Positions 2,867-27,252 are shown, numbered from the stretch's first letter. The stretch is 64,000 nucleotides of DNA from Haloterrigena salifodinae (GCF_003977755.1 NZ_RQWN01000003.1:310001-374000), one strand, 5' to 3'. Numbers and translations are program-made. The notes: generated from the letters alone by a model not told the origin.

Positions 2867-2891
2867 TTCTTAAACGCTAATCCTTATATGG
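2867..2891 (+). promoter_or_regulatory. amt promoter: diverged nitrogen motif joined to the TATA box
   Basis: This 25-nt stretch matches the nitrite reductase promoter (22254-22278, minus strand) at 19 of 25 positions with no gap. Both contain TAAACG in the upstream part and end in TTATATGG at the same spacing. TTATAT at 2884-2889 is a good TATA box; initiation would fall near 2912-2916, about 20 nt before the leader ORF. The shared layout suggests one regulator acting at the BRE/TATA edge of nitrogen genes. Confidence 0.55.
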
Positions 2892-2931: not shown

Positions 2932-3012
2932 ATGGTGTCGAACGATTCAGACATGGACAAACGTCTACAACGCATCGATGGGGGAACGAGTGAAACCGGG
3001 GTGGTCGCCTGA
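2932..3012 (+). CDS. 26-residue leader peptide ORF overlapping the amt start
   Basis: A short ATG ORF (begins [18 protein letters not shown], ends GVVA) opens about 20 nt after the predicted start of transcription. It closes with TGA overlapping the amt ATG as TGATG. It is hydrophilic and has no recognisable domain. The overlap implies that ribosomes terminating here can restart on amt, so it may act as a translational coupler or leader. Whether the peptide itself matters is unknown. An in-frame upstream extension of amt is excluded because the two frames differ. Confidence 0.45.
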
Positions 3013-4784
3013 TGGAGCCGACGCTCCTGCAGAGCGGGGAAGAAGTCGAGATGCTGATGGAGGCGATCAACTACACGTGGATCCTGGTTGCCACCTTCCT
3101 GATCTTCTTCATGCACGCCGGCTTCGCCATGCTCGAGGCGGGGCAGGTGCGCTCGAAGAACGTCGCCAACCAGCTGACGAAAAACTTGCTGACCTGGTCG
3201 GTCGGCGTGACGGTGTTCTTCCTGATCGGATCGACCGTTGAGGGACTCGTGGCCGGCAACGGCTTCGCGTTCCAGTTCAACGCCGAGGCCGTCAGCTGGA
3301 TGGACTGGTTGTATGGCGCCGTCTTCGCGATGACGGCGGCAACCATCGTTTCCGGGGCCGTCGCCGGCCGTGCGAAACTCCGCGCGTACGTTACGTACAC
3401 CTTCCTGTTGGCCGCGGTCATCTACCCGGTCGTCACCGGGATGACTTGGGCCGGCGGCCACATCGAGTCGATAGTCGGCACGCCGTTCTCCGACTTCGCG
3501 GGCGGGATGATCGTCCACGGCATGGGCGGCATCGCCGGACTCACCGCCGCGTGGATCCTCGGACCGCGCATGGACCGGTACAACGACGACGGGAGCGTCA
3601 ACGTCATTCCCGGTCACTCGCTGACCTTCGCCGTGCTCGGAACGCTCATCCTCGCGTTCGGCTGGTACGGCTTCAACGTCGGGACCTCAGCGATCTTCAC
3701 CGAGGGCTCCTTCGACGGGGCCATCCTCGGTCGCGTCGCCCTGACCACCACGCTGTCGATGGCCTGCGGGGCGATGGGCGCCGGCCTCGTCGCGCTGCTC
3801 AAGACTGGCAAGGTTGACACGCTCTACGTTGCAAACGGTCTGCTCGCCGGCCTCGTCGGGATCACCGCGATCCCCGATGCCTCGACCTGGTGGGGCGCGA
3901 TCCTCGTCGGTACGCTCGCCGGCGCACAACTCCCCATCGTCTTCGGACTCACCGAGAGCATTGGTATCGACGACGTCTGTGCGGTCTTCCCCGTGCACGG
4001 TTCGGCCGGCGTCCTCGGGACGCTGCTGTTCCCGGTCGTCGCCACGACCGAGTACATGAACGAACTCGGAGCCACCCGCCCCGAAGCGTTCGTCGCTCAA
4101 GTTACCGGCGTCGTCGCCATCACCGTCTGGACAGTCGGCATGACCGCCCTCATCTGGTTCGTTTTCAAGCTGGCAGGTCAGGCTCGAGTCACACCCGAAC
4201 ACGAGCGCGACGGGCTCGACGTCTCCGAACACGGCGTCGACACCTACCCCGAGTTCGGCCAGCCGGACGTCGCGACCGACGGTGGGACGGACGAGAAAAT
4301 CATCCGCACTGACGGCGGTGAGCGACTCGACGGTGAGCGCGAGCAAAGCGAGCGCGATCCACATCGGAACGCGAAGCGTTCCGAGGACGAGTCGCGATCC
4401 TCGTCAGAGCTTCGCTCTGACGGTGGCAAACCCAACGACGGCGAGCTCAAGATGATCACCGCGATCATCCGCCCCGACAAGCTCGGCGACGTCAAGAAGG
4501 GACTCGCCGAGATCGGCGCGCCGTCGCTGACGGTCACCAACGTCTCCGGCCGCGGCTCCCAGCCCGCCAAGAAGGGCCAGTGGCGCGGCGAGGAGTACAC
4601 GGTCGATCTCCACCAGAAGGTCAAGATCGAGTGCGTCGTTGCCGACATCCCGGCCCAGGACGTCGTCGAGGCCATCGGCGAAGCCGCCAACACCGGCGAG
4701 CCGGGCGACGGCAAGATCTTCGTCATGCCCGTCGAGGACGCCTACCAGGTCCGGACCGGAAAAACCGGACAGGACGCCGTCTGA
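3012..4784 (+). CDS. amt: ammonium transporter fused to a GlnK-type PII signal protein
   Basis: A membrane ammonium channel carrying its own regulator. Residues 1 to about 395 are an Amt/Mep/Rh transporter: [15 protein letters not shown] near the N-terminus, and the two pore histidines in [10 protein letters not shown] (His169) and [10 protein letters not shown] (His329). Residues 481-590 are a complete PII protein: [11 protein letters not shown] start, T-loop with RGEEY (Tyr529, near the position of the classical modified tyrosine), and the [11 protein letters not shown] and RTG signatures. A charged linker of about 85 residues joins them. In most organisms GlnK is separate and plugs the Amt trimer from the cytosol when nitrogen is plentiful; here it is tethered. 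No stop or frameshift separates the domains. Met481 could also serve as an internal start giving free GlnK. Confidence 0.93.
4321..4422 (+). repeat. palindrome-rich DNA encoding the Amt-PII linker
   Basis: The linker DNA is a string of small repeats. It begins with a direct repeat GAGCGCGA (two copies in 4335-4357). Then come inverted repeats: CGGAACGC-GAA-GCGTTCCG at 4365-4383, CGAGGA/TCCTCG at 4382-4403, and a 9-bp stem CGTCAGAGC with loop TTC at 4402-4422. The encoded residues (about 437-470) are low-complexity E, R, S and D. Three-nt-loop hairpins like these also make up the intergenic repeat at 60560-60746, so this looks like intergenic-type DNA captured in frame. Confidence 0.6.
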
Positions 4785-20391: not shown

Positions 20392-22161
20392 TCAGTCGTC
20401 GGACGGGGCCGCGGCCCCGTCGCCGGCGGCGGCCGCCGCGGACTCGCTCTCGGCGAAGGGGTACCAGGACTGCTTGGCATCGCCCATGTACGGGGCCTCG
20501 AAGTCCGTCTCCTCGGGTTCGCAGAACTCGATGAGCTGTTCCTCGCCCGTCGCCTCGACCCACTCGCGGAACGTCTGCCCGTCCGAACGGTGGGCCGCGT
20601 AGGCCTCGAGCAGGTTCCGGATCGCGCCGGGGGCCTCGTCGGCCGGGACGCGCTGCTGGATCCAGTCGATGAAGGAGGGGTCCTCGCCGACGCCGCCGCC
20701 GACGCCGATGTCGAAGGCCTCGACCATCTCGCCGTCCTTGCGTGCACGCATTCCCTGGAGACCGATGTCGGCGGTCATCGCCTGCCCGCAGTCGGCCGTA
20801 CAGCCGGAGTAGTGCATCTTGATCTTGCCGACGTCCTCGGGTAGGTCGACGTTCTTGTTGAACCAGCGCAGCATGCGGGCCATCCGCCCCTTCGTCTCGG
20901 TCAGCGCGATCGAGCAGAACTCGGTGCCGGTACAGGCCATCGTCCCGCGCTCGAACGGGCTCGGCTCGGCGGGGTACTCCTCGAGGATCGGTTCCGCGAG
21001 CAGCCCCTCGAGGTCTTCGTCGGCGACGTCGACGATGACGGGGTTCTGGCGGCGGGTCAGCCGGACCTCGCCGGAGCCGTACTCGTCGGCCAGATCAGCG
21101 AGTTCGATGGCGTCCTCGGCCGGGAGCCGGCCGACGGGCACGCTCAGGCCGACGTAGTTCCGGCCGTCCGTCTGGTCGCCGACGCCGACGTGGTCGTGTT
21201 GGCCCTCCTCGACGGGGCGGCCGGCGTTGTAGGTGTACTCCTCGCGGAAGTCCTCGCCCGCGCGGAGCATCTCGAAGTCGACGTACTCCTCCTGAAGTGT
21301 CTCGCGGATCTTCTCCATCCCCCAGTCCTCAGCGAAGAACCGGGCGCGGTTCTTCGAGCGGTTCTGGCGGTTGCCATAGTCGTGGTAGAGTTCGACGAAG
21401 CCGCGGCCGACCTCGTAGCCGTTTTCGGGCCGGACGAAGACGTCGAGCGGCGTCGCGGCGCGGGGCTGGCGACCGCCGAGTCCGCCGCCGATACAGACGT
21501 TGAATCCGCGGACTTCCTCGCCATCTACCTCCTTGGTCGCCGGCTCGAACCCGATATCGTTGAGCGAGTCCTGGGCACAGCCGACCGTACAGCCCGACGC
21601 GCTGATGTTGAACTTCCGGGGCATGTTCGCCAGCGCGTCGTCCTTGCGCAGGTCCTCCTCGAAGCGCTCGAGCAGCGGTCCGACCTCGACGAACTCCTCG
21701 GCCTTGCCGTGGAGCGGGCAGCCTGAGATGTTGCGCATCGTGTCGCCGCCCGCCGAGCGGGAGTGGACGCCGACTTCCTCGAGTAGCTCCCAGATCTCGG
21801 GGATATCCTCGAGTTTGAGCCAGTGGAGTTGGACGGACTGGCGGGTCGTCAGGTCGATCCAGCCGTTCCCGAACTCGGGGTTTTCGACTGGCCCCTTCGC
21901 GTACTCCTTCGCAACTTCGCCGATGCGGCGCAGCTGCCCCGGTTCCAGGATGCCGCTGGCGTTGGTCAGCCGCATCATAAAGTACTCCTCCTGGCCGGAG
22001 CGCTGCTGGAACACGCCCCAGAACTTGAACCGGGTGGTCCACGTGTCGACCTCGTCGTCCGGGATGGCCTCGAAGCCGCCGTTCTCAGCGAAGCGCTCGA
22101 TGTGTTCCCGCACTTCGTCGCCGTAGCAGTCTTCTTTCTGTTCTTCTTTCTTATGCACCAT
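20392..22161 (-). CDS. nirA: ferredoxin-dependent assimilatory nitrite reductase
   Basis: Six-electron reduction of nitrite to ammonium in the cytosol with sirohaem and a [4Fe-4S] cluster. 589 residues, with the two-fold repeated ferredoxin-like/sirohaem domain structure. The cluster ligands are visible as ACTGTEFC (C-x5-C) and YSGCTADCG (C-x3-C). There are no NAD(P)H or FAD domains, so ferredoxin is the likely donor, as in haloarchaeal NasD. A closely related sulfite reductase is the alternative, but the location among nasA and narK and the shared promoter motif favour nitrite. The start is at the ATG giving MVHKKEEQ; the 54 nt of extra frame upstream lack support. Confidence 0.9.
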   Translation of the reverse strand: MVHKKEEQKEDCYGDEVREHIERFAENGGFEAIPDDEVDTWTTRFKFWGVFQQRSGQEEYFMMRLTNASGILEPGQLRRIGEVAKEYAKGPVENPEFGNGWIDLTTRQSVQLHWLKLEDIPEIWELLEEVGVHSRSAGGDTMRNISGCPLHGKAEEFVEVGPLLERFEEDLRKDDALANMPRKFNISASGCTVGCAQDSLNDIGFEPATKEVDGEEVRGFNVCIGGGLGGRQPRAATPLDVFVRPENGYEVGRGFVELYHDYGNRQNRSKNRARFFAEDWGMEKIRETLQEEYVDFEMLRAGEDFREEYTYNAGRPVEEGQHDHVGVGDQTDGRNYVGLSVPVGRLPAEDAIELADLADEYGSGEVRLTRRQNPVIVDVADEDLEGLLAEPILEEYPAEPSPFERGTMACTGTEFCSIALTETKGRMARMLRWFNKNVDLPEDVGKIKMHYSGCTADCGQAMTADIGLQGMRARKDGEMVEAFDIGVGGGVGEDPSFIDWIQQRVPADEAPGAIRNLLEAYAAHRSDGQTFREWVEATGEEQLIEFCEPEETDFEAPYMGDAKQSWYPFAESESAAAAAGDGAAAPSDD

Positions 22162-22218
22162 CGGCGACCACCTCGACCGGACGATCGGAGCCGAATACGC
22201 GAAGTTCCTCACCAAACA

Positions 22219-22243
22219 TGACGTAATTCACGTTTCTACGTCA
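22219..22243 (-). promoter_or_regulatory. inverted repeat at the nitrite reductase transcription start
   Basis: TGACGTA-N11-TACGTCA, an exact 7-bp inverted repeat. The predicted transcription start (about 25 nt from the TATA box at 22256-22261) falls inside it. This fits a repressor site or a leader hairpin. The same sequence is not found in front of nasA. Confidence 0.4.
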
Positions 22244-22253
22244 CGACACTAAA

Positions 22254-22278
22254 CCATATAACGGTAATCGTTTACAAA
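22254..22278 (-). promoter_or_regulatory. nitrite reductase promoter: nitrogen motif plus TATA box
   Basis: Read on the coding strand, TTTGTAAACGATTACCGT (22261-22278) is followed directly by TATATGG. The 18-nt block is identical to one upstream of nasA (27235-27252). It contains the inverted repeat GTAA-N4-TTAC. Its place just upstream of the TATA box fits activator-assisted TFB/TBP recruitment. Confidence 0.7.
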
Positions 22279-22907
22279 TAAATAATTTTCTTCCAATCCC
22301 AGCATCGAACGTAGCATCTCCAATCGGATATGATGTGTATTAGGGTGTATATCCGACTCGAGCGACGTGGCAATTGATCGATTCGAAACGGCGAGTCGGA
22401 CTCGAGACCGGGGAGGAGTCAGCGGGGAGCGCCGATCAGTGCGCGACCGGTACCCCCGTCGCGCGCGAGACGTCGTTTACGATTCGTTGGGGGCCGGCGA
22501 TGGAATGTTCGCGAGAAGTATGCCGCCTCGAGCGGACGAACGGTCGTCCAGTTCGGTATCAGTAGTTAGTAGCGCGGTTCTCGCTTCAGAAGTATCTCTG
22601 AGTCGAAGGCGAGCGATTCGTATCCAACCTGCGGGCCCCTTCCTCAGGGCGAAAGAACGAAATCGCGCTCTGATCACCTGCTCAGCCAGTCCAGTAGCCA
22701 CTCGCAGGTCGAACTCGACGGACGATCCTAATTCAGGATGGCGGTATCGTTCATTTTTGGGTTGTCGCTCTACGAGCCGTGATCAGGTCGTAGTCCTCGA
22801 CTCTACGCAACTCGGTACGTGTAGAAGCGTATCGTACAGATGGACGACCGAACGATTGCTGTCGATGTGGCGAGTACGAGTCTGTAGTCTCGACCGGGCT
22901 CACCGAC
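22279..22907. other. gene-poor region in the nitrate cluster
   Basis: 629 nt between the nitrite reductase promoter and the 3' end of the next gene. Frames on both strands have unnatural composition (runs of Ser and Arg) and no recognisable domain, so I do not call a gene. TCGGATAT-N17-ATATCCGA at 22324-22356 is an exact 8-bp inverted repeat within AT-rich DNA. The rest shows nothing I can name; a decayed gene is possible. Confidence 0.45.
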
Positions 22908-23363
22908 TCATTTGAGAGCGTTTATGCGCGGTACGTCTGCACCGGTCGTCTTGAACTGCACTGCGTCGCTGACCTGCACGCTGTTGAATATCATGCGGTC
23001 AGTCCGATAGGCCAGCGATTCATCGGTCGCCACGTTCTGTTCCTCATTCGCTGTCTCGTGGTTAATATGAAGATTGTAATAGATATCTTCGTAGTCGGCC
23101 TCAAACTGGCGGGCAAGGGCGGCGTCAACTGTTACGTCCTGCCAGTCGGAGAACTCGTCGCGGTACTCGGCATCATCAATAGTGAGTGTTCCTTCGTGTG
23201 CTAACACAGTGTGACTCTCGTCGCCACCCCGACCCGTAATCGACTTCGCTTCGACCGTTCCCGTGACTGTTGATGACGCTGTGAGCGTAGCGTTCGCACC
23301 GGCTGCAACGGCTCCAAGGCTACCGACTGCACCGAGCGACCGGACGAACGTCCGTCGTTCCAT
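22908..23363 (-). CDS. small Tat-exported protein, unknown function
   Basis: 151 residues. The N-terminus MERRTFVRSLGAVGSLGAVAAGANA has the twin-arginine RRTFVR motif, a short hydrophobic core rich in Ala and Gly, and an Ala-x-Ala cleavage site, so it is probably exported folded. The mature part is a predicted beta-rich domain without Cys (VTGTVEAKSITGRGGDESHTVLAHEG and IDDAEYRDEFSDWQDV). It lies between narK and nitrite reductase but has its own 5' region with a TATA-like ATTTATT. Link to nitrate metabolism is not shown. Confidence 0.65.
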   Translation of the reverse strand: MERRTFVRSLGAVGSLGAVAAGANATLTASSTVTGTVEAKSITGRGGDESHTVLAHEGTLTIDDAEYRDEFSDWQDVTVDAALARQFEADYEDIYYNLHINHETANEEQNVATDESLAYRTDRMIFNSVQVSDAVQFKTTGADVPRINALK

Positions 23364-23571
23364 AGAGAGAGATCGGTCGGAAATCCCAATAAATGACCTG
23401 TAGACTTAAACAGTAGTTTCACCCAAGCGGACAGGATGTACCGTTCGCTCTCGTATCTCTACTGAACGCGATTTCCACGCGCTGCTCCGAGTACCGAAAT
23501 CGCATTGCCAACGATTTGTATCGAATCCGAAGGCTCAGTCAGCGATCGACCCGCGATCGAGGCGCGCCCGG

Positions 23572-24930
23572 TCAGTCGTCGGTGGGTGCCGACGAATTGG
23601 CGGGAACGAGCGCCGATCGAGTTCGGTAGAGCCCGCTCGAGAGACCGATCGAGATGACCCCGAAGACGAGGAAGACGACGAAGCCGGTCGCGTAGCCCGG
23701 CGTCCCCTGCAGGTCGACGAAGAGGCCGAGGACCGGCGGGATGGCGAAGCCGCCGAAAGCGCCGATGCCGCCGACCAGTCCCGAGGCGCCGCCGACGGCG
23801 TCGGGGACGTACGTCGGCACCAGCTGGAAGACGGCCGCGCTGGCGACCCCCATACCCGCGCCGAGCAGTATCGTCGCGGCGACGGCGACGGCGAACTCGC
23901 GGGTGACGACGAGCAGCGCCGTCGCGAGTACGATCGCGCCGAAGCTGACGATCGCGGTCGGCTCGCCGCCGAGCCGGTCGCTGACGACGCCACCCGGGAC
24001 CCGGATCACCGCTGCGAGCAGCGTGAAGGCGACCGCCGTGAGCGCGCCGGCGGTTCGCACGTCGACGCCGTGGACGGCCTGCCAGTACGACGGGAGCCAG
24101 GTCGTCAGCGCGAGGAAGCCGCCGAACGAGGTGAAGAACAGCGCGACGAGGACCCACGTCCGAGGAATCCTCGCCGCACCCCGGATCGAGGCCATCGCGT
24201 CGCCGCCGGGAAAGAGCTCCTGGCCGCAGGCCTCGGCGCGCCGCCGAGCCTCGCGCTCGCTGACGCCCCGCTTGACGAACTGGAAGTAAGGAGCGTCGAC
24301 GGCGGAGGATGCGTAGGCGACGGTCCCGACGATCAGGAACGCGAACCACGCGAGGTACGCGCCGGTGAGGCCGAGCACGGCCAGCGCGACGGGGAGGACG
24401 AGCGTGAACAGCCCCGGCGACGTGTTGCCGAGTCCGCCGAAGACCGCGAGTACCGTTCCCTGTTTCTCCGAGGGGTACCAGTACGACGTCTGGGTGGACC
24501 CGACGGAGAACGTCGCGATGCCACAGCCCGACAGCGCCCCGAAGAAGAACACGATCGGGTAGTGAGCCATCGTGAGCCCGTCCGGATAGGCCGTCAGCAG
24601 GAGCACCGACAGTCCGCCCATCCCGACGATCGACAGGCCGAGCAGGACCAGAAACGGTTTCTTCGCGCCGACGTCCTCGACCCACGCCCCGAAGGGGATC
24701 CGGAGCAAGGAGCCGGTCAGCTGGGGCGCGGCGACGAGCAGCCCGACCAAGAGCCCGGAGAGCCCCATTGCGTCCTGAAACTCCGAGGCGACGGGCCCGT
24801 AGCAGACGACGCCGGCGAAGCCGACGAAAAACCCGAGGGTCGCGGAGGCGACGCCCCGTCGCGGCGTTCCTTGGACGGCCGGCGCGGACGCGTCGCTCGA
24901 GTCGGGCGATTCCGACGGTCGCTCACGCAT
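23572..24930 (-). CDS. narK: nitrate/nitrite transporter, NarK type (MFS)
   Basis: 452 residues, twelve membrane helices after a hydrophilic N-terminus of about 25 residues. NarK features include the first-helix pattern ASATLGFFVGFAGVVCYGP, an arginine in LTGSLLRIPFGAWVEDVGAKK that pairs with nitrate in this family, and the glycine-rich signature VFGGLGNTSPGLFTLVLP. A second glycine-rich stretch VGGASGLVGGIGAFGGFAIPP lies in the other half. It begins 30 nt after the nasA stop, so nasA and narK form one operon. Confidence 0.9.
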   Translation of the reverse strand: MRERPSESPDSSDASAPAVQGTPRRGVASATLGFFVGFAGVVCYGPVASEFQDAMGLSGLLVGLLVAAPQLTGSLLRIPFGAWVEDVGAKKPFLVLLGLSIVGMGGLSVLLLTAYPDGLTMAHYPIVFFFGALSGCGIATFSVGSTQTSYWYPSEKQGTVLAVFGGLGNTSPGLFTLVLPVALAVLGLTGAYLAWFAFLIVGTVAYASSAVDAPYFQFVKRGVSEREARRRAEACGQELFPGGDAMASIRGAARIPRTWVLVALFFTSFGGFLALTTWLPSYWQAVHGVDVRTAGALTAVAFTLLAAVIRVPGGVVSDRLGGEPTAIVSFGAIVLATALLVVTREFAVAVAATILLGAGMGVASAAVFQLVPTYVPDAVGGASGLVGGIGAFGGFAIPPVLGLFVDLQGTPGYATGFVVFLVFGVISIGLSSGLYRTRSALVPANSSAPTDD

Positions 24931-24960
24931 CGATCGAACACCCGAAAACGGCCGCCATCG

Positions 24961-27120
24961 TTAGGCACTCGCTTCCGCAACCGCCCGCGCCTCCTGCTCG
25001 CGAGGCGCCTCGAGGCGGACCGCGCACTGTTTGAAGTTGGGCTCCTTCGAGCGCGGGTCGACGTCCGAGAGCGTGAGTTCGTTGACCGCGGGCTGGTGAA
25101 TCGGGAGCCAGACCACGCCGTCGGGGATCGACTCGTCGCGCTCGACACGGACGGTGATCGAGCCCCGGCGGGAGACGACGTGAGCGTACTCGGCGGGGTC
25201 GTCGTCGGACTCACCGGGTCGGGACTCGAGTTCGTCGGCCAGCGCGGCGGCCGTCGCGGGGCTGACCCGGGCGACGGGGTCGTCTTCGCGCGCGCGGACG
25301 CCGGAGTTGTACGCGTCGGGACGCCGGGCCGTCGTCAGCGTGAAGGGGTACTCCTCGTCGGTCGACTCCGGTAGCGGCCGGGCCTCGCCCGTCGAGAACC
25401 GCGCGCGGCCGGAAGGGGTCGGGAACGACCACGACTCTTCGCGGATGGTCGCGTCGGCGTCCTCGCCCTCCTCGTCGGTCGCCGGCCCCTCGTAGTAGCG
25501 GTAGCCGCCCGAGACGTCCGGTTCCGGCGCGGGCCAGCGAACCGCCACCTCCTCCTCGAGGCGGTCGTAGCTGATCCCCGAGAGGTCGGCGGGGGTGCCC
25601 TCGGTCAGCGCCGCCAGTTCGTCGAAGGCCGCGTCGGGCTCGAGCGGGTCGTCGAAGAGGTCGGGGACGAGCCGATCGGCGAGGTCGCCGATCAGTTCGA
25701 GGTCGGTCTTGACGCCCGACGGTGTCTCCGTCGCGGCGCGCACGCGCGAGACCGTGCGTTCCATGTTGGTCGTCGTCCCCTCCGACTCGCCCCACGTCGC
25801 GGCAGGGAACACGACGTCGGCGAGTTCGACCGTCTCGCTGCGGAAGGCGTCCTGTACGACGAGGAAGGCGTCCTTGAGCTGTTCGCGGACGCGGTTGGCG
25901 TCGGGCATGCCGGCGACGGGGTTGGTCGCGACGGCGTAGACGGCGGCGACGTCGTCGCCGATCTCGTCGACGATGCCGACCGGGCCGGGGCCGGGGTCGT
26001 CGGGCAGGCGGGATTCGGGAACGTCCCACGTCTCGGCGACCTTGCGGCGGTGGTCGGGATCGGTGAACGGGCGCTGGCCGGGCCATGACCCCTTCGAGGA
26101 GCAGACGCGAGTCCCCATCGAATTAGCCTGACCGGTCAGCGAGAACGGGCCCGACCCGGGCCGGAGGTTCCCCGTCGCCAGACAGCAATCGATCAGCGCG
26201 CCCGACGCCGCGGTGCCGTTGACGCTCTGGTTGATTCCCATCCCCCAGTAGACGAGCGTGGGATCCTCGAGCGCCGCGGCGATTCGATCGACGTCCTCGA
26301 GGGAGACGCCGGCGGCCGCGGCGGCCTCGGCGGCGTCCGGGAGGTCCTCGCGGAGGGCATCGAAACCGTCGGTCGCTTCGGCGACGAACGCCTCGTCGAC
26401 GCGGTCGGTCTCGACGACGCGCGCGAGGACGGCGCGGGCGAGGTCGAGGTCCCCGCCGGGCGAGAGGGGCACGTGGTGATCTGCGACCTCGGCGGTCTCA
26501 CTTTCGATGGGGTCGACGACGATCAGTTTCGAATCGTCGTCGTCGGCCGATTGGCTGATCCACCGGAACATGACCGGGTGGGCCGCGGCCGGGTTCGCAC
26601 CCCAGACGAGGTGGGTCTCGGCCTCGGGGATGTCGTCGTAGGTCGGCGGCGGCGCGTCGCTCCCGAAGGCGTCGTAGTAGGCCGTGACGGCCGAGGCCAT
26701 ACACAGCGTCGTGTTAGCGTCGTAGTACGGCGTGCCGAGGCCCCCACGGGCGAGTTTGCCCAGCGCGTAGGCGGCCTCGTTGGTCTGCTGGCCGCTACCG
26801 AGGACGGCGACCCCTTCACCGCCGGCGCCGTGCTCGAGCGCCGCGTCGAGCCCTTCGGCGGCGCGCTCGAGGGCGGTCTCCCAGGTCGTCGGCACCAGTT
26901 CGCCGTTCCGGCGGACGAGCGGGCGGGTGAGCCACTCGGCGCCGGGGTCGACGGACTCGGTGATACCGCGCTGACAGGCCAGCCCGTTGTTGACCGGGTG
27001 GGCGGCGTCGCCGCGGACGACGTCGAGGCCGTATCCCTGTTCGACGGGACGGTGGACGTGACCGCAGCCGACGGCACACCGCATACACGTCGTCGATACC
27101 AGATCAGTCACGCCGTCCAC
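24961..27120 (-). CDS. nasA: assimilatory nitrate reductase catalytic subunit
   Basis: Reduces nitrate to nitrite with a molybdenum bis-MGD cofactor. 719 residues. The N-terminal [4Fe-4S] site is CMRCAVGCGH with a later cysteine in GLACQRGI. Pterin-binding features follow (GSGQQTNEAAYALGKLARGGLGT; WGANPAAAHPV; GNLRPGSGPFSLTGQANSMG). The C-terminal molybdopterin-dinucleotide-binding domain spans about residues 590-719 (LTTARRPDAYNSGVRARED). No membrane anchor or Tat signal is present, so it is cytosolic, as expected for assimilation. It starts at GTG (27120); no ATG gives a complete iron-sulfur motif. It is first in the nasA-narK operon and is preceded by the nitrogen motif. Confidence 0.93.
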   Translation of the reverse strand: MDGVTDLVSTTCMRCAVGCGHVHRPVEQGYGLDVVRGDAAHPVNNGLACQRGITESVDPGAEWLTRPLVRRNGELVPTTWETALERAAEGLDAALEHGAGGEGVAVLGSGQQTNEAAYALGKLARGGLGTPYYDANTTLCMASAVTAYYDAFGSDAPPPTYDDIPEAETHLVWGANPAAAHPVMFRWISQSADDDDSKLIVVDPIESETAEVADHHVPLSPGGDLDLARAVLARVVETDRVDEAFVAEATDGFDALREDLPDAAEAAAAAGVSLEDVDRIAAALEDPTLVYWGMGINQSVNGTAASGALIDCCLATGNLRPGSGPFSLTGQANSMGTRVCSSKGSWPGQRPFTDPDHRRKVAETWDVPESRLPDDPGPGPVGIVDEIGDDVAAVYAVATNPVAGMPDANRVREQLKDAFLVVQDAFRSETVELADVVFPAATWGESEGTTTNMERTVSRVRAATETPSGVKTDLELIGDLADRLVPDLFDDPLEPDAAFDELAALTEGTPADLSGISYDRLEEEVAVRWPAPEPDVSGGYRYYEGPATDEEGEDADATIREESWSFPTPSGRARFSTGEARPLPESTDEEYPFTLTTARRPDAYNSGVRAREDDPVARVSPATAAALADELESRPGESDDDPAEYAHVVSRRGSITVRVERDESIPDGVVWLPIHQPAVNELTLSDVDPRSKEPNFKQCAVRLEAPREQEARAVAEASA

Positions 27121-27146
27121 CTCCGACCCGACACGAGACGACCGGC

Positions 27147-27165
27147 GTGTGATTTACAATCACAC
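27147..27165 (-). promoter_or_regulatory. near-perfect hairpin in the nasA leader
   Basis: GTGTGATT-TAC-AATCACAC: an exact 8-bp inverted repeat with a three-base centre, 27-45 nt upstream of the nasA GTG. It would be part of the mRNA leader if transcription starts near 27205. It could be a protein site on DNA or an RNA hairpin controlling access to the start codon. Confidence 0.5.
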
Positions 27166-27234
27166 TCTGCATCGGGGATTTGACCCAACTTCATGGACTC
27201 TTTCACAGAAATAGGGAACGTATGGGGCTACTAA

Positions 27235-27252
27235 ACGGTAATCGTTTACAAA
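27235..27252 (-). promoter_or_regulatory. nasA-narK promoter nitrogen motif
   Basis: TTTGTAAACGATTACCGT on the coding strand, identical over 18 nt to the site upstream of nitrite reductase. It is followed by TTAGTAG, a weaker TATA-like box. Its distance to the start codon is about 115 nt, leaving a leader of roughly 85 nt. Confidence 0.7.

Follow-up and report, generated by a model that had tools for sequence, protein, structure and literature searches.

A dyad element at the nasA-narK, nirA and amt-glnK promoters of Haloterrigena salifodinae as the probable operator of a haloarchaeal nitrogen regulon

The promoters of the assimilatory nitrite and nitrate reductase genes of Haloterrigena salifodinae share an 18-bp element, TTTGTAAACGATTACCGT, and a diverged third copy stands before the fused ammonium transporter and PII gene amt-glnK. 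The original prediction had read the first two copies as the binding site of a nitrogen regulator. Comparative genomics supports this reading well, because the element is present in nearly all orthologous promoters of the Natrialbaceae, with variants elsewhere, and extends to amt-glnK and narK; the sequence comparisons make it almost certainly the operator of a nitrogen regulon. In the full explanation, which we hold to be probable on balance, the operator of nasA-narK, nirA and amt-glnK would be bound by an Lrp protein acting as activator. All coordinates refer to the window, the 64,000-nucleotide stretch analysed here (GCF_003977755.1 NZ_RQWN01000003.1:310001-374000).

No description of the element was found in the open-access literature; subscription journals lay outside this search and may hold an earlier one. 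Palindromes of unspecified sequence have been mentioned for the nasABC and nasD promoters of H. mediterranei (PMC2483277), and papers of 2013 and 2021 describe the mechanism that controls haloarchaeal nitrogen-assimilation genes as unknown (PMC3831643, PMC8143581). A family-wide operator with three strict sites in the genome, together with a named candidate protein, makes the question of the regulator testable, and the shared element joins ammonium uptake (amt-glnK) and nitrate assimilation in one regulon.

Three copies of the element in the window

The genes and promoter features of the three units are as follows.

20392-22161, minus strand: nirA, ferredoxin-dependent assimilatory nitrite reductase (Pfam NIR_SIR and NIR_SIR_ferr)
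22256-22261, minus strand: nirA TATA box TTATAT, abutting the element
22261-22278, minus strand: nirA-promoter element, exact match to TTTGTAAACGATTACCGT
23572-24930, minus strand: narK-type nitrate transporter (MFS_1)
24961-27120, minus strand: nasA, assimilatory nitrate reductase (NCBIfam equivalog NF041323, 1225.7 bits against a cut-off of 1000)
27228-27235, minus strand: nasA TATA-like box TTTAGTAG, abutting the element
27235-27252, minus strand: nasA-promoter element, exact match to TTTGTAAACGATTACCGT
2867-2884, plus strand: third element copy, TTCTTAAACGCTAATCCT, in the amt-glnK promoter
2884-2889, plus strand: amt-glnK TATA box TTATAT
3012-4784, plus strand: amt-glnK fusion, an ammonium transporter with a C-terminal PII domain (PF00909, PF00543)

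The nearest NCBIfam models for NirA (ferredoxin--nitrite reductase) and for the transporter (NarK family) both score below their cut-offs. The narK gene lies 30 bp behind nasA and is probably in one operon with it. Open frames similar in length to amt-glnK occur in most Natrialbaceae, which suggests from sequence that the fusion is general in this family; Haloarcula has a separate glnK. Between narK and nirA, a predicted exported protein of 151 amino acids is encoded at 22908-23363 (minus strand). It has no Pfam or NCBIfam match, a homologue is absent from all nirA loci fetched, and the gene is perhaps a lineage-specific insertion.

The 18-mer occurs exactly twice in the window, and both copies read in the direction of nirA and nasA, whose coding strand is the minus strand. 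The identity over the 18 bp initially given as the shared length was borne out; the true shared stretch is one base longer, 19 bp, and begins at 22260 in the nirA copy. Beyond these 19 bases the flanks of the two copies differ. The GTAA-N4-TTAC arrangement described earlier is present inside the 18-mer, and the proposed location just upstream of the TATA region proved right for both units, each copy directly abutting a TATA-like box (TTATATGG for nirA, TTTAGTAG for nasA). The view that an 18-nucleotide match is improbable by chance agrees with the roughly 0.01 matches expected per shuffled window when up to three mismatches are allowed, and the whole genome (4.96 Mb) contains no further site with two or fewer mismatches to the 18-mer.

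The copy at amt-glnK, overlooked in the original prediction, was revealed by a discovery matrix trained only on the nirA and nasA sites of relatives. Scores of this matrix in the window were 44.1 and 43.2, followed by 22.0 at 2867-2884 (plus strand); in the shuffled-sequence control, per 64 kb, none was as high as 6. In about 28 of 30 Natrialbaceae amt loci, the best same-strand match had the equivalent position, usually -128. A degenerate pattern comprising element and TATA, TNNNTMAACGNTNANNNTTWWR, yielded exactly three sites in the genome, those of nasA, nirA and amt, and the reversed-pattern control yielded none. When one mismatch was allowed, six matches were obtained in the own genome versus three for the reversed control; because this is only about twice the control, no further weak sites are claimed. 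Between amt and nas sites there is a consistent difference in sequence (CAACGCTAAYCC versus AAACGATTACC), which could mean two regulators.

The element is an imperfect dyad centred between C9 and G10, with the consensus TTTGTAAACGATTACCGT and T-N-A-A-C|G-N-T-N-A as its most constant part; the perfect form, CTGTAAACGATTACAG, is seen in one relative. Columns with little or no variation are T5, A7, A8, C9, G10, A14, T18 and T19, and T12 is strong. In Natrialbaceae promoters the information content is highest over element and TATA, columns 18-22 being conserved at the nirA TATA box and the nasA box being kept in relatives. A conserved GTGA at element position 47-50 in the nirA, nasA and amt promoters is likely the transcription start, a position predicted from sequence.

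The adjacency to TATA, the merging of the 3' T's of the element with the TATA box and the fixed spacing from the element to the putative start are also features of what an extended core promoter might look like, that is, a form of BRE recognised by one TFB/TBP pair in particular and not a regulator site. However, the constant columns are mostly distal (positions 5-14) and dyad-symmetric, the element is much longer than a BRE, and there are just three strict genomic sites, all at nitrogen genes. We regard a core-promoter function as very improbable.

Conservation of the element and of the leaders

The nirA loci were taken from about 80 genomes; the genomes share ancestry, and the conservation counts given here are not independent. 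Among 61 genomes (the own genome and relatives), many contain exact or near copies of the element paired or tripled about 2-7 kb apart, and the reversed pattern was almost silent. In Natrialbaceae the element is in coding orientation and ends about 100-107 nt upstream of nirA and 108-119 nt upstream of nasA, and a TATA box of the TTATATGG or TTTAGTAG type follows directly. Orthologous sites with a final-matrix score of at least 14 were present in 35 of 35 nirA and 29 of 30 nasA promoters of this family. At the same threshold we counted 132 sites in 1,874 kb of real loci as against one in 479 kb of shuffled loci, and 104 of the 132 fall in nasA, nirA, narK or amt promoters. Some of the sites counted had also served to train the final matrix, so that independent testing comes from amt, the paralogue control and the other families. 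Promoters of the nirA paralogue (about 54% identical) carried the element in 0 of 10 cases. Variants were found in Haloarculaceae and in part of the Haloferacaceae, and also before narK in other genera; outside Natrialbaceae the sequence drifts, for example to TTCGTAAAGAGTTACTGTTATAC in Haloarcula nasA and to TTTCTTAAACGATTAGGGTTTTATG in genus g68. In Natronococcus, nasA has been relocated away from nirA and has retained the element.

The findings are those of a regulon in two respects: one sequence recurs before several transcription units of linked function, and it keeps a constrained position in orthologous promoters while control promoters lack it. They also bear on the thought that two exact copies 5 kb apart in one cluster are a coincidence, or a recent functionless promoter duplication between neighbour genes. 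The unrelated flanks, the orthologous sites kept across many genera, the element at the relocated Natronococcus nasA, the diverged amt copy about 20 kb away from the nas copies and the empty paralogue control all contradict this, and the conservation data can be said to have refuted it already, leaving it next to no probability. The motif had been envisaged upstream of nasA, nirA, narK, glnA and amt, which holds for all of these genes except glnA. In five glnA-lrp regions examined no match scored 13 or more, and glnA was rejected as a target.

Several sites stand apart from these counts. Judged by the 18-mer alone, the element seemed to be missing from Halorubrum and other divergent loci. In the Halorubrum nirA loci (L106, L108 and L129) and in L137, a different conserved sequence, TTATAAAANCCGAACTATTTTATG, stands as far from nirA as the element does elsewhere; it may have diverged from the element or replaced it, and was not counted as the element. 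The variant TACGTCAACGATAATCCTTATG precedes the gene of a sodium-dependent transporter by 28 nt in locus L152, and the identical variant 22-mer occurs in L164 and L166, which with L152 represent three genomes of the same genus. In a genome without nirA, an element-like site (L226, 5141, minus strand) precedes a class-III aminotransferase gene by about 70 nt. The sodium-dependent transporter of L152 and the aminotransferase of L226 are possible extra members of the regulon.

Downstream of the element, the leaders of the three units contain further features.

22151-22219, minus strand: nirA upstream ORF (MFGEELRVFGSDRPVEVVADGA, then stop), its stop overlapping the nirA start
27108-27194, minus strand: nasA upstream ORF, its stop TGA overlapping the GTG start (GTGA)
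27147-27165, minus strand: nasA-leader palindrome GTGTGATTGTAAATCACAC, a conserved sequence inside the upstream ORF
2932-3012, plus strand: amt-glnK upstream ORF, with a TGATG overlap with the amt start

The stop of the nirA upstream ORF lies over the start region in 35 of 35 Natrialbaceae, at the same base in 33, and the nasA upstream ORF ends over the start codon in 29 of 29. For amt, the stop is at a near-fixed point in 17-19 of 30 relatives, 17 of them having it at the position seen in the window. Changes in upstream-ORF length among relatives come mostly in steps of three, in counts that shared ancestry inflates, and the peptides are modestly conserved. This arrangement suggests translational coupling. 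The GTGTGATTGTAAATCACAC palindrome is kept in about half of the Natrialbaceae and is decaying in the rest; because third codon positions are conserved, it was probably selected as DNA or RNA, and it may be an operator or an RNA hairpin. One could combine these features into a two-layer cassette in all three units, with an Lrp-bound operator at the TATA box and a frame-kept upstream ORF, plus the palindrome in the nasA leader. We think such a cassette decidedly unlikely; if true, nitrogen status would set both the transcription and the coupled translation of the genes for nitrate, nitrite and ammonium acquisition.

Mode of action and candidate regulator

In the mechanism that we propose for the small haloarchaeal nitrogen regulon of nasA-narK, nirA and amt-glnK, a dimeric regulator would bind the imperfect dyad immediately before the BRE/TATA region and, under a shortage of fixed nitrogen, would most likely recruit or stabilise basal factors. 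The regulator may be an NF041396 Lrp/AsnC protein, either the glnA-linked Lrp, a nas-associated second copy or both, and would sense a ligand that reports nitrogen status, such as an amino acid.

An activator is fairly probable, because the element lies just upstream of TATA and because a promoter mutant of H. mediterranei was inactive without being derepressed: a 5-nt TAGAT change in region 2 of p.nasABC abolished nitrate-dependent activity and gave no derepression on ammonium (PMC8143581). TAGAT inside the element (TTnnTnAACGATTA) was not found in any nasA promoter examined. Repression deserves some weight because the element may overlap the BRE. As a repressor operator, the element would hold a protein that blocks access of TFB/TBP when ammonium is present, and its overlap with the expected place of the BRE, its contact with the TATA box and the silencing of nas transcription by ammonium in H. 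mediterranei (PMC2483277, PMC8143581) would all be in keeping with this. Yet the H. mediterranei promoter change, at a site that may or may not be this element, killed activity on nitrate without derepression on ammonium, and the element is placed upstream of TATA, not across it; a repressor operator is to our mind unlikely.

The best candidate for the regulator is the haloarchaeal Lrp (NF041396). An Lrp of this type is present in 41 of 41 Natrialbaceae tested, and six of seven Lrp proteins score above the family cut-off, a diverged copy (L076) reaching only 124 bits. In nearly all Natrialbaceae one lrp copy lies about 145 bp from glnA. Linkage to element-bearing units is seen in Natronococcus, where two genomes have lrp about 100 bp after nasA, behind the element, and in Haloarculaceae, where each amt copy in the loci examined has an Lrp/AsnC gene next to amt-glnK; in the genome of the window lrp is unlinked to them. 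In the Lrp tree, whose deepest node is weakly supported, the nasA-linked copies form a second clade that is never glnA-linked. This clade is represented in 12 of 18 genomes with nirA versus 1 of 17 without it (Fisher p=0.0003, species treated as independent). As six nirA-containing genomes are without it, a single Lrp type could account for every site only if that type were the glnA-linked Lrp.

In the own genome, a second-clade Lrp gene (locus L223; contig C1, 428000-435500) has as its neighbour an ABC transporter with a binding protein that comes closest to TupA, which binds tungstate. Molybdoenzymes include nitrate reductase.

In H. mediterranei, the glnA-adjacent Lrp HFX_0246 was the promoter-specific protein pulled down on p.nasABC, and this occurred on both nitrate and ammonium (PMC8143581), a result that would leave the switching to a ligand. 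That Lrp is the protein binding the element is in our estimate slightly favoured. The nitrogen-regulon operator could instead be bound by a protein encoded elsewhere, such as an HTH_10 activator (Bat/NarO/DmsR-like) or an undescribed winged-helix protein. Its architecture resembles the denitrification semi-palindrome CGAAYATDKTYG, which is likewise a promoter dyad of even length; next to the nas cluster of the window there is no regulator gene; Lrp proteins are many and ubiquitous, which makes linkage alone weak; and the six nirA genomes without the second Lrp clade point the same way. On the other hand, no such gene was recognised among the recurrent nas neighbours in the loci examined, Lrp genes turn up in two further, independent contexts apart from glnA, and the promoter-specific protein of the published pull-down is an Lrp (PMC8143581). 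We consider a non-Lrp regulator possible but doubtful.

Comparison with known systems

The CGAAYATDKTYG semi-palindrome, found in denitrification promoters of Hfx. volcanii and Hfx. mediterranei, is related to a motif described with NarO in H. volcanii (PMC10062603). Like this semi-palindrome, the element is a short dyad of even length that lies in promoters of haloarchaeal nitrogen-oxide genes. Its arms are GTAA and TTAC around N4, unlike the CGAAC and GTTCG arms of the semi-palindrome, and no CGAAC-N4-GTTCG-like arms were found in it. Furthermore, the semi-palindrome serves respiratory genes and has been reported before 83 promoter regions, whereas the element serves assimilatory genes and has three strict sites. 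Another haloarchaeal sequence, AAAGACTAART, was described in the alanine/ammonium response of Hfx. volcanii for a gene set that includes amt1 and amt2, and there too an Lrp was proposed (PMC6801745). It bears a vague likeness to AAACGCTAAT of the amt sites, but it is shorter, is reported upstream of 492 genes and is not described there as anchored to TATA (PMC6801745).

The operator of the methanogen regulator NrpR has dyad symmetry and lies near the promoter. The element would likewise be an archaeal nitrogen operator with a dyad near the promoter, but the NrpR gene is missing from the Haloterrigena genome, and NrpR was rejected as the regulator since PF01995 is absent there. The search for this domain was negative in the own genome and in 18 of 20 relatives (2 of 21 genomes positive); the PF01995 genes lie in two Natrialbaceae genomes (G007 and G006; loci L241, L242 and L243). 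Repression by NrpR is mentioned in PMC3584215.

Among archaeal Lrp proteins, the Ss-LrpB consensus is a 15-bp odd palindrome (PMC4046817). The element is an even-length dyad, which counts against Lrp in a comparison with one archaeal Lrp consensus. Sa-Lrp of Sulfolobus acidocaldarius is glutamine-responsive and contacts nitrogen-assimilation promoters (PMC3584215); its site, in a different phylum, differs from the element in being bipartite, AT-rich and far upstream of the start. For the haloarchaeal Lrp (NF041396) no DNA consensus was found in the literature surveyed. Contrary to what Lrp autoregulation would lead one to expect, the lrp and glnA promoters, and thus glnA-lrp itself, lack the element. 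The haloarchaeal Lrp OE3923F of Hbt. salinarum adjoins glnA and affects it (PMC2894021), and among the relatives examined here, genes homologous to those of OE3923F and HFX_0246 show linkage with nasA, amt-glnK and glnA.
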